From contig JAEEMS010000021.1 of the NCBI GenBank assembly GCA_016283355.1, positions 62,001-126,000 of the forward strand: 64,000 nt of DNA, given 5' to 3'. Origin of the DNA: Elusimicrobiaceae bacterium. Its GTDB lineage: Bacteria > Elusimicrobiota > Elusimicrobia > Elusimicrobiales > Elusimicrobiaceae. Numbering within the stretch: position 1 is the first letter of the stretch; each line of letters begins with the position of its first letter. Below the pieces are notes generated by a model. The model did not search any database. It was not told where the DNA came from and saw only the letters and a program-made list of their open reading frames with translations. The position numbers and the translations under genes are program-made. Positions 41,479 through 45,219 of the stretch are shown piece by piece.

Positions 41479-42102
41479 CTATAATTCTTCGTGCATTACT
41501 TTGAGGGCGGCTTTTTCTTTTGCCACGGGCAAACATTCTTGCACTTTGTAATTTTTTCCTTCTACCATGTTGGCAAGCAGGGCAATATCGGCATCGTTTA
41601 ATACTTCTTTGTCATACGTGGTGCGAAACTCATATGCTACCCCGCTTTCCTGCAAAAGTTTCATGGATTGTTTAATAACGGCCGCATTTGTGTCCACTTC
41701 GGTAATCAGGGAGTATTTTTCAAACGGGGCCTTTAAATCCATCGCCACAAAATCCACGAGTTTTTGTGAGAGAAGTTTTTCCAACATTTCCGGGCGAGAA
41801 CCGTTTGTGTCTAATTTTGTTTTATAACCCAGGGCTTTGATGTCCGCTAAAAAACGGGGTAAATCGTCGTGTAACGTAGGTTCCCCGCCGGACACAACAA
41901 CGCCTTCCAACGTGCCTTGGCGGCGCTTTAGGAAGGCGAAAAATTCTTCTTCAGTATATGGTTCCGTAAAAAGATGGGGATAGACCAGCTCCGGGTTATG
42001 ACAATAGCGACACCGAAAATTACAACCTTGTGTAAATACGATAGCCGATGGTGTACCCGGGAAGTCAATTAAGGTAAACTTTACCATCCCTCCCAATTTC
42101 AT
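41479..42102 (-). CDS. nrdG: Anaerobic ribonucleotide reductase activating protein NrdG
   Basis: A 207-residue radical SAM enzyme. The C-x3-C-x2-C cluster motif is GCNFRCRYCHNPEL near residue 27, and the glycine motif VVSGGEPTLHDDL follows. It installs the glycyl radical on the class III reductase. The N-terminus MKLGGMVKFTLIDFPG is typical of the NrdG/PflA-like family. It starts 21 bases after the separate glycyl-radical subunit gene, so activator and substrate peptide are expressed together. Confidence 0.95.
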   Translation of the reverse strand: MKLGGMVKFTLIDFPGTPSAIVFTQGCNFRCRYCHNPELVYPHLFTEPYTEEEFFAFLKRRQGTLEGVVVSGGEPTLHDDLPRFLADIKALGYKTKLDTNGSRPEMLEKLLSQKLVDFVAMDLKAPFEKYSLITEVDTNAAVIKQSMKLLQESGVAYEFRTTYDKEVLNDADIALLANMVEGKNYKVQECLPVAKEKAALKVMHEEL

Positions 42103-42123: not shown

Positions 42124-42330
42124 TTATTTGCTGCAGCAGTTGCAGGTTTCCACGTTCATGGTTTTGCGCATTTCGAATTCTTCTTTTTTACCTTTGTTCC
42201 AGTTTTGCACCGGGCGCAAATAACCCACTACGCGGGAATAAACTTCACATTTAGAACCTTGTACTTCACTCATTTCTTTTTTAAGATCGGAAATCTTGTT
42301 TTCTACAGCTTGTTTTTCTTGTGCGGTCAT
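42124..42330 (-). CDS. Separate glycyl-radical subunit of class III ribonucleotide reductase (NrdD C-terminal domain)
   Basis: 68 residues. SRVVGYLRPVQNWNKGKKEE is the conserved glycyl-radical loop of NrdD, with the radical Gly at 36. The large NrdD gene upstream lacks it. Residues 9-23 have a perfect a/d heptad pattern (Val9, Ile13, Leu16, Met20, Val23), predicting a short coiled coil. The C-terminus CNCCSK adds three Cys. RBS AGGAG. It has its own promoter and a 108-base leader, so it can be made independently of the large subunit. It is encoded directly before its activase nrdG. NrdG should abstract hydrogen from Gly36. Confidence 0.9.
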   Translation of the reverse strand: MTAQEKQAVENKISDLKKEMSEVQGSKCEVYSRVVGYLRPVQNWNKGKKEEFEMRKTMNVETCNCCSK

Positions 42331-42537: not shown

Positions 42538-44598
42538 TTACTTGCTGTAAAGTTGTTCTTCCAACAACCGAATCTTACGTTCCAATTCTTGCATCCGTTC
42601 GGCTTTGCATTTGGGGCATTCAAAATGTTCCCCCGGAATGTAGCCGCATTTGGGGCAGACGCTGAACGTAGGTGTAATGGAAAAATACGGTAACGTGTAT
42701 TTTTCGCATACGGTTTTGATGAATTTCTTCATCGCATCCAAATCTTTAATTCGTTCTCCGGTAAAGATGTGTTGTACGGTACCGCCGGTATATTTGGATT
42801 GAATGGTGCTCTGCAAATCGAGCATTTCAAATACATCATCGGTATAATTCACCGGTAACTGAGACGAATTTGTATAGAACGGTTGGTGCCCTTGTTTATA
42901 AAGCGGCTCGTTTGCACAAATAATTTCCGGATACCGTTCTTTGTCCAGTTTTGCCAAACGATAGGAAGTTCCCTCGGCAGGGGTGGCTTCCAGGTTGTAA
43001 TTGTTGCCTGTTTCCTCTTGGAATTTTACCAAGGTCTCGCGCATGAATACAAGCACTTTTTCAGCAAATTTGCGGCCCTTTTCCGTACCAATATCTTCGC
43101 CGATTAAGTTGAGAGAGCATTCATTGAGTCCCACGAGCCCAATGGTGGAGAAGTGGTTCTTCCAGAATTCGCCAAAGCGTTGGCGGATGGAACGCAAGTA
43201 AAAACTCATGTACGGATACAAATTACCTTTGGTAAACCGTTCAATCACTTTGCGTTTAATTTCCAAGCTGGTCTTGGCTACTTCCATACGGTTTTTCAAA
43301 TTGGCAAAAAATTCGTCTTCATCTTTAGACAAATACCCTAACCGTGGCAAGTTAATCGTAACCACCCCGATAGAACCCGTGAGCGGTGCCGAACCAAAAA
43401 GACCGCCGCCGCGTTTACGAAGTTCGCGGTTGTCGATACGTAAACGGCAACACATAGAGCGGGCATCTTCCGGATTCATATCCGAATTAATGAAATTGGC
43501 AAAATAGGGAATACCATATTTTGCTGTCATTTCCCATAACGGTTCCAATTTCGGGTTGTTCCAATCGAAATCACGTGTGATGTTGTAGGTGGGAATCGGG
43601 AACGTGAACACACGTCCTTTGGCATCCCCCGCAAGCATTACTTCGCAGAAAGCACGGTTGAGCATATCCATTTGTTCTTGGAACTCACCGTACGTTTTAT
43701 CTTGCAATTTTCCGCCGATGATGACCGGTTGATCCTTATAGTAGGAAGGAACGGTTAAGTCCAGCGTTAAGTTGGTAAACGGTGTTTGGAACCCTACGCG
43801 GGTAGGAACGTTTACGTTAAATAAAAATTCTTGCAAGGCTTGTTTTACTTCGTCATAGGAAAGTTTGTCATAATAGATAAACGGTGCCAACAGCGTATCA
43901 AAGTTGGAAAACGCTTGTGCTCCGGCACTTTCCCCTTGCAATGTGTAGAAGAAGTTAACCACTTGCCCGAGTGCGGTGCGGAAATGCTTGGCGGGTTTTG
44001 ACTCGGCTTTGCCAACTACACCGGTAAAACCGCTTAAGAGTAAATCTTGCAAATCCCATCCCACACAATAGGCGCCCAGGAGCCCTAAATCGTGCAAGTG
44101 GAAATCTCCTTCGCTATGCATACGGCGCACATTTTCCGGGTAGATTTTGTTGAGCCAGTAAACTTTGCTGATTTCCGAAGAAATATAGTTGTTAAGCCCT
44201 TGCAGCGAGTATCCCATATTGCTGTTTTCGTTGACTTGCCAGTCAATTTTTTGCAGATATTGGTCCACCAAATCCACGTTGAATTTGGAAGAAATTTCAC
44301 GCATGCGGGCGTGCTGGTCACGGTACAGGATATATGCTTTGGCCGTTTTGTGATAATTTGAGGTTAAAAGTACGTCTTCCACAATATCCTGTACGTTTTC
44401 CACGTTCGGAATAGTGTCCGAATAAAGTTGTTGAATAATGTTAATAGCGCGGATGGTCAATTTTCTGGCGGTATCCGCATCAAATTCTCCGGTAGCTTCT
44501 GCTGCGCGGGTAATTGCTTTGGCAATCTTTTTAGAGTCAAAAGGTTGGGTAGTACCGTCTCTCTTAACGATACGTGTGATTACTTCGGATGTTTCCAT
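42538..44598 (-). CDS. nrdD: Class III ribonucleoside-triphosphate reductase, catalytic subunit lacking the glycyl-radical domain
   Basis: 686 residues. An N-terminal ATP-cone (about 1-95, RIVKRDGTTQPFD) binds allosteric nucleotides. The barrel has Cys178 (GAYCVGWD) and the thiyl-radical Cys region MCCRLR (383-384). The zinc ribbon CPKCGYIPGEHFECPKCK is near the end. Normal NrdD continues into a glycyl-radical loop; this one instead ends in a helix ERMQELERKIRLLEEQLYSK with perfect a/d heptads (Met, Leu, Ile, Leu, Leu). The missing loop is the next gene. It reduces NTPs to dNTPs in anaerobes. RBS AGGAC. Confidence 0.93.
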   Translation of the reverse strand: METSEVITRIVKRDGTTQPFDSKKIAKAITRAAEATGEFDADTARKLTIRAINIIQQLYSDTIPNVENVQDIVEDVLLTSNYHKTAKAYILYRDQHARMREISSKFNVDLVDQYLQKIDWQVNENSNMGYSLQGLNNYISSEISKVYWLNKIYPENVRRMHSEGDFHLHDLGLLGAYCVGWDLQDLLLSGFTGVVGKAESKPAKHFRTALGQVVNFFYTLQGESAGAQAFSNFDTLLAPFIYYDKLSYDEVKQALQEFLFNVNVPTRVGFQTPFTNLTLDLTVPSYYKDQPVIIGGKLQDKTYGEFQEQMDMLNRAFCEVMLAGDAKGRVFTFPIPTYNITRDFDWNNPKLEPLWEMTAKYGIPYFANFINSDMNPEDARSMCCRLRIDNRELRKRGGGLFGSAPLTGSIGVVTINLPRLGYLSKDEDEFFANLKNRMEVAKTSLEIKRKVIERFTKGNLYPYMSFYLRSIRQRFGEFWKNHFSTIGLVGLNECSLNLIGEDIGTEKGRKFAEKVLVFMRETLVKFQEETGNNYNLEATPAEGTSYRLAKLDKERYPEIICANEPLYKQGHQPFYTNSSQLPVNYTDDVFEMLDLQSTIQSKYTGGTVQHIFTGERIKDLDAMKKFIKTVCEKYTLPYFSITPTFSVCPKCGYIPGEHFECPKCKAERMQELERKIRLLEEQLYSK

Positions 44599-44786
44599 AA
44601 TATCAAGTCCTGGTTAGAAAATGCCGCTGTGAACTTTTTGAAATCCTGCGGGTAAAACTAATTAAAACATAAACAAACCAAAATTGCAAATCTCTTCGGG
44701 TTGCGGGCCGGCCGAAAGTCCCAAAAAATAATTCTCCGTCGGAGAATTAGGGTTTTTGCCGTTTTCCGTACCCCTGTGTTGGGTTG
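44599..44786 (-). promoter_or_regulatory. nrdD: Long nrdD leader with a terminator-like hairpin
   Basis: About 190 bases are transcribed before nrdD. A stem AATTCTCC/GGAGAATT with loop GAC (44730-44748) is followed on the minus strand by ATTTTTT, the form of an intrinsic terminator 125 bases before the start codon. Downstream are further complementary segments (CTTTCGG, CCGGCC, CCGAAGAG). This suggests attenuation or an unrecognised riboswitch. No known aptamer is recognised. Confidence 0.5.
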
Positions 44787-44806
44787 TTAGTAATAATTAT
44801 TACTAA
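44787..44806. promoter_or_regulatory. 20-bp perfect palindrome over the nrdD -10 (candidate operator)
   Basis: TTAGTAATAATTATTACTAA is its own reverse complement. It covers the -10 hexamer (44796-44801) of the nrdD promoter, the position of a repressor operator. It does not match the NrdR box or the FNR consensus; it is loosely like Fur/PerR-type AT palindromes. Regulator unknown. Confidence 0.6.
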
Positions 44807-44824
44807 TAAGCGCCGGGTTGTCAA
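44796..44824 (-). promoter_or_regulatory. nrdD: nrdD promoter
   Basis: On the minus strand consensus TTGACA (44819-44824), 17-base spacer, AATAAT (44796-44801). The predicted start lies near 44789. Confidence 0.7.
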
Positions 44825-44970: not shown

Positions 44971-45219
44971 ATGACTCTTTTTCAAGGTTGTATCTTGCTG
45001 ATTTTAGTTGTAGTAGCTATTTTTATCGTGCGTGCGGCGCGTCAAATTACCCGCACGGCGGAGGCCGCCGAATATTTGCTTATCACAACGGCCGAAAAAG
45101 TGGACCAAACCAAAAATACGTTTGACTTAATTGAAAATGTAAGCGGTTTGTTAGATGCCGGTTGGTACAAAGCACTCAAATTAGGTATGGACTTTGTACA
45201 GCGATGGAAACACAAATAA
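44971..45219 (+). CDS. Small membrane-anchored protein (DUF948-like)
   Basis: 82 residues: an N-terminal membrane helix (about 5-22) followed by a helical region (ARQITRTAEAAEYLLITTAEKVDQTKNTFDLIENVSG) typical of small coiled DUF948/YtxG-type proteins. A basic C-terminus follows. RBS CGAGGAGG. Own promoter and terminator. It is divergent from nrdD, but no functional link can be claimed. Confidence 0.72.
   Translation: MTLFQGCILLILVVVAIFIVRAARQITRTAEAAEYLLITTAEKVDQTKNTFDLIENVSGLLDAGWYKALKLGMDFVQRWKHK

Follow-up and report, generated by a model that had tools for sequence, protein, structure and literature searches.

Regulatory elements upstream of nrdD

What is the perfect palindrome that lies over a promoter of the class III ribonucleotide reductase gene in an uncultured gut member of the Elusimicrobiota, and which regulator would read it? 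The locus lies in a window (the whole stretch of DNA that was analyzed) of 64,000 nucleotides from an Elusimicrobiaceae bacterium, and the features relevant to the distal promoter, P1, and to the reductase genes are the following.

41479-42102, minus strand: nrdG-type activase (TIGR02495 NrdG2, 215 bits, cut-off 131)
42124-42330, minus strand: separate 68-aa glycyl-radical subunit (RVVGYLRP; PF13597 positions 531-560), kept as a separate gene
42538-44598, minus strand: nrdD, class III ribonucleotide reductase large chain with ATP-cone and without the glycyl-radical domain (Pfam NRDD and ATP-cone; NCBIfam TIGR02487/NF006126 above cut-off)
44784-44806: second, overlapping register of the predicted PerR box (21.3 bits with the position weight matrix [PWM])
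44787-44806, no strand: perfect 20-bp palindrome TTAGTAATAATTATTACTAA, centre at 44796/44797, overlapping the P1 -10
44787-44809, minus strand: predicted PerR box of the Fur-family 7-1-7 type, TTATTAGTAATAATTATTACTAA (24.0 bits with the PWM built without nrdD sites; conserved in 46/54)
44796-44801, minus strand: P1 -10, AATAAT, from the sequence, within the predicted PerR box
44819-44824, minus strand: P1 -35, TTGACA, from the sequence

The coordinates bear out the arrangement proposed in the initial annotation, namely TTGACA (44824-44819), a 17-bp spacer and AATAAT (44801-44796) on the minus strand upstream of nrdD, with a palindrome over the -10. The hexamer is indeed covered, but the centre of the palindrome falls about 2 bp from the middle of the hexamer, so that it is not exactly centred there as had been claimed. 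Two exclusions made at the same time also held. The FNR pattern TTGAT-N4-ATCAA is absent from the promoter sequence, and none of the 41 genomes of the genus yielded an NrdR, the matches to TIGR00244 being to the ATP-cone of nrdD alone and below the cut-off. NrdR boxes likewise control nrd promoters, but their sequence is unrelated, and since NrdR was not found in the genus, it is expected rather than surprising that the palindrome is not an NrdR box; NrdR was ruled out as the regulator of nrdD because no nrdR gene was found. An Rfam search of the window and of the nrdD upstream region returned two tRNAs and chance matches, nothing more, which indicates that no known riboswitch is present upstream of nrdD.

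At up to 3 mismatches, no second copy of the palindrome was found in the 64-kb window, where chance would give 0.01, or anywhere else in the 1.4-Mb genome. The exact 20-mer is private to its own genome and is carried by 0 relatives. The nearest relative differs from the window by one base in the element (...TTATTAtTAA to ...TTATTAcTAA), and it is this single change that accounts for the perfect symmetry of the 20-mer.

Conservation of a 23-bp box

We aligned the 330 bp upstream of nrdD in the window and in 53 related loci (54 regions in all) from the same genus of gut Elusimicrobiota, with records under Elusimicrobiaceae, Elusimicrobium and Candidatus Avelusimicrobium. A 23-bp element that overlaps the 20-mer, TTATTAGTAATAATTAYTANTAA (minus strand, 44809-44787), was near-invariant. 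It is this box, and not the 20-bp palindrome taken as a functional unit in the initial annotation, that is conserved. Conservation of the palindrome region upstream of nrdD in close relatives, on which that annotation had staked its reading, was found: a box of at least 16 bits is kept in 46 of the 54 genus genomes, at -170 to -230, against a null in which 99% of 330-bp stretches scored below 12.2 bits and the largest of 1000 reached 19.7. It is missing at nrdD in 8/54 genus genomes, and the nrdD loci examined beyond the genus (Endomicrobiellum and other phyla) had no comparable box.

The symmetry of the 20-mer might be an accident of an AT-rich -10 region, a reading favored by its overlap with the -10 and by the privacy of its exact form. 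However, TTGACA stands at a fixed distance (26 to 28 bp to the box centre) in only 35 of the 46 box-bearing regions, and the box is present in the 11 without it (for example L027, L030, L032 and L033, where the -35 is gone), which argues for selection on the box itself and not merely for a conserved promoter. The spacer from TTGACA to AATAAT is 17 bp in 31/54 genomes and 18 bp in 5/54. With its 7-1-7 layout, the motif TTAgkAATnATTmcTAA is of the Fur-family type, and TTAGTAATAATTAYTANTAA and its relatives show this symmetry around an AATnATT core. As is looked for in a PerR operator, the box overlies a promoter element, here the P1 -10.

Recurrence of the motif at peroxide-defense genes

A search of 61 whole genomes was performed with the nrdD-derived motif as well as with a shorter core. 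Matches away from nrdD fell at about 20 places, and the 19 whose context was read (G070:C2 was left out of this reading) lay upstream of the Fur-family gene or of a tpx-desulfoferrodoxin-flavodiiron operon, in which domain searches identified thiol peroxidase, desulfoferrodoxin, flavodiiron protein and flavin reductase. The presence of one motif at perR and at peroxide-defense genes of the same lineage is expected of a PerR operator, and the recurrence at perR and dfx/tpx refutes accidental symmetry as a full account, leaving it very unlikely. The boxes also seem to have drifted in parallel across targets, at the level of the genus rather than in matched genomes: nrdD boxes of the form TAAATAGTAAAAATTCTTAATAA occur in L035, L037 and L038, and the same genus has TAAGAATAATTCTTA and TAAATAAGAAAAATTCTTATTTA as variants of its perR and dfx boxes.

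In the window's own genome, the perR box TTAAGAATTGTTACTAG stands directly before the start (CTTATTAAGAATTGTTACTAGTATA on the plus strand of L165) and is imperfect, with 3 mismatches, and no clear box was found at the promoter of the tpx-dfx operon, so that the own-genome regulon rests on two sites. At 3 mismatches this genome gave 23 motif matches versus 34 in a mirrored control; given this lack of enrichment, only the comparative evidence counts. The own-genome near-matches L141, L142 and L143 were dropped, as they fell within coding sequences or on their borders.

A PWM was trained on 49 distinct perR and tpx/dfx sites and on no nrdD site. With this matrix, the two top-scoring sites of the 64-kb window were the two registers of the palindrome, at 24.0 and 21.3 bits, ahead of a third site at 14.4 bits. 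For comparison, 100 Markov windows gave a mean maximum of 13.6 (highest, 19.4) and 200 symmetric permuted matrices one of 13.7 (highest, 19.6). The test is not fully independent, since its training sites had been located via a consensus first seen at nrdD; it supports, and does not replace, the whole-genome search, which is the cleaner test.

A single Fur-family protein

Fur-family genes numbered at most one per genome, with exactly one in 34 of the 41 genomes, including all 22 of high quality. The best match of the own protein (L165:4699-5148) among solved structures was Bacillus subtilis PerR (2fe3, 5.7e-16), and the alignment to it showed that all five regulatory ligands (H37, D85, H91, H93 and D104) are kept, along with the structural zinc site (two CxxC, four zinc cysteines). 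In Fur-type proteins, a Glu takes the place of D104. In the loci read, the Fur-family gene is followed in an operon by rubrerythrin, the own copy of which matched NF045767 above the cut-off. The NCBIfam PerR models were the best matches to the own protein, yet scored 86 and 83 bits where the cut-offs are 180 and 200; as these models are named for particular lineages, the shortfall does not concern a defining feature of PerR. Together, the regulon sites, the single Fur-family gene and the PerR ligand set with D104 point to a PerR.

We consider it unlikely that this one Fur-family protein occupies the box in response to iron or another metal instead of peroxide, which would make nrdD follow iron supply as a Fur target does. 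One regulator would serve all targets in that case too, the 7-1-7 box type is common to the Fur and PerR families, and the scores below the PerR model cut-offs would fit. The Asp at position 104 with the complete ligand set, the sites at rubrerythrin, thiol peroxidase, superoxide reductase and flavodiiron genes, and the absence of iron-uptake genes among the sites read all speak against it. The initial annotation had proposed an uncharacterised redox- or metal-responsive repressor and had named the Fur/PerR type; the redox repressor operator stands, and "uncharacterised" does not, as the regulator is best explained as PerR, the gene for which is in the same genome with the same type of box on its own promoter. 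A different redox or metal repressor on the palindrome would be compatible with the fact that PerR binding to the nrdD box is itself deduced, but it is highly improbable given the box on the promoter of perR itself, the match to predicted Desulfovibrio PerR boxes and just one Fur-family protein per genome.

Proposed control of nrdD by PerR

We therefore favor, with a probability of roughly 84%, the reading that the nrdD palindrome is a PerR operator, at which PerR would repress P1 and peroxide or O2 would release it, with a second promoter, P2, probably giving basal supply. From the sequences we infer PerR binding, the direction of control, peroxide as the signal, the activity of P2 and the physiological reason. 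In the proposed mechanism, PerR loaded with Fe(II) (or Mn) would sit on the -10 and start region of P1 and block RNA polymerase; since the box covers the -10 and the presumed start, bound PerR should exclude the polymerase. Peroxide, or O2 leading to peroxide, would oxidise PerR, which would then leave the DNA and open P1, and the extra nrdD transcription would allow replacement of the oxygen-damaged glycyl-radical reductase. Repression of rubrerythrin would be lifted along with that of nrdD, as would that of the tpx-desulfoferrodoxin-flavodiiron operon in many relatives, and P2 would maintain the basal supply of the sole reductase found in the genome. Most likely, then, oxygen stress raises, via PerR, the output of the one enzyme for making DNA building blocks that was detected in this strictly anaerobic gut bacterium.

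PerR boxes and PerR control of the oxygen defense of anaerobes are already known. The core G(G/T)AATnRTT(A/C)C of the nrdD-box motif recurs in the predicted Desulfovibrio boxes AATAGGAATCGTTCCTGTT and ATCAGTAATTGTTACTGGT (Rodionov et al. 2004, PMC545781, Table 7), and a perR-rbr operon and oxidative-stress genes of anaerobes are likewise found there, although nrdD is not in the listed PerR regulon; for D. vulgaris and Desulfuromonas, the same source reports a B12 element ahead of nrdDG. The B. subtilis box TTATAATnATTATAA is also a symmetric Fur-family box with an AATnATT core, read by a protein with PerR-type sensor residues, but its flanks (TAGTAAT / TAGGAAT) and targets differ. In Clostridium acetobutylicum, O2 tolerance is switched by PerR (Hillmann et al. 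2008/2009, cited in PMC7482061); there too the PerR of a strict anaerobe represses rubrerythrin and flavodiiron genes, but the accessible text of PMC7482061 mentions no reductase target. Streptococcus pyogenes nrdD appears in a PerR-regulon table at -2.9/-2.5 fold, with no direct site stated in the accessible part of the source (PMC4487405); if these values are mutant versus wild type, their sign is not as expected of direct repression. The open-access literature, as far as its accessible text goes, yielded no report of direct PerR control of nrdD, and PerR control of a class III reductase appears undescribed there.

The unexplained promoter palindrome thus gains a candidate regulator, PerR, with a regulon predicted throughout this uncultured genus of gut Elusimicrobiota. 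An essential, oxygen-sensitive class III reductase joins the predicted peroxide response, which suggests a testable direct link between oxygen stress and the supply of DNA precursors in a strict anaerobe without NrdR.

No PF02867 reductase was found in the own genome, which makes nrdD the only reductase detected and means that it cannot be fully shut off. An extra PF02867 reductase is present in 4/41 genus genomes (G001, G005, G020 and G035). Upstream of nrdD, the three of these that were readable had a weak box of 18.0 bits (G001 and G020) or none (G035, which is L039 by coordinates). A second reductase may thus go with a weak or missing PerR box at nrdD; the association is suggestive only, as the genomes are few and possibly related.

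Predicted second promoter and split enzyme

Between P1 and nrdD, three further features were recognized.

44732-44746, no strand: distal GWCG element, TTCTCCGACGGAGAA, 52 bp upstream of the P2 -35
44684-44689, minus strand: P2 -35, TTGCAA, predicted promoter (TTGCAW-17-TGnNNNAAT, conserved in most genomes)
44661-44666, minus strand: P2 -10, TTTAAT with an extended TG motif, from sequence conservation

The P2-like element (window 44689-44661) lies about 85 bp from the nrdD start codon. Two GWCG elements, one CCGACGG-like and one AGACG-like, stand between P1 and P2 exactly 44 bp apart in 30/54 genomes, with little conservation between them, and each of the other spacings between 36 and 52 is seen in 0 to 1 genomes; the window retains the distal element. 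The two are probably paired binding sites for a regulatory protein. No second promoter copy of the CCGACGG palindrome was found elsewhere in the own genome.

In every complete locus of the genus that was read, the glycyl-radical domain has a gene of its own, of 60 to 70 aa. It is also separate in loci titled Endomicrobiellum, Spirochaetia, WOR-3, Pacearchaeota and Patescibacteria (one draft-genome locus each) and fused in others; the accessible text of the RNR-family papers searched makes no mention of such a split class III enzyme. Between nrdD and the glycyl-radical gene, the minus strand carries a terminator-like hairpin (42510-42476) and then a promoter, TTGAAT-17-CATAAT (42474-42446), and across the genus a hairpin followed by a separate TTGAAA/T-17-CATAAT promoter often precedes this gene. 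A broader scheme, which we regard as speculative and rather doubtful, would join these elements into a two-promoter nrdD without NrdR, in which PerR opens P1 under oxidative stress, P2 answers to the regulator of the GWCG pair (44 bp), and the oxygen-cleavable glycyl-radical domain of 60 to 70 aa is made from its own promoter as a spare part, the damaged reductase being repaired as pyruvate formate-lyase is by YfiD.

Three minor observations concern the surroundings. At 44971-45219 (plus strand), a divergent gene encodes a protein of 82 aa whose N-terminal segment is hydrophobic and which matches nothing in Pfam or NCBIfam. Just upstream of P1 (44828-44895), a conserved inverted pair, GGnCCTAGAT ... 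ATATAGGTCC, flanks CTTATTTTTTA in the window's clade. The arms of the hairpin between nrdD and the glycyl-radical gene covary in relatives (GGGTTA/TAACCC, GGGCCGG/CCGGCCC).
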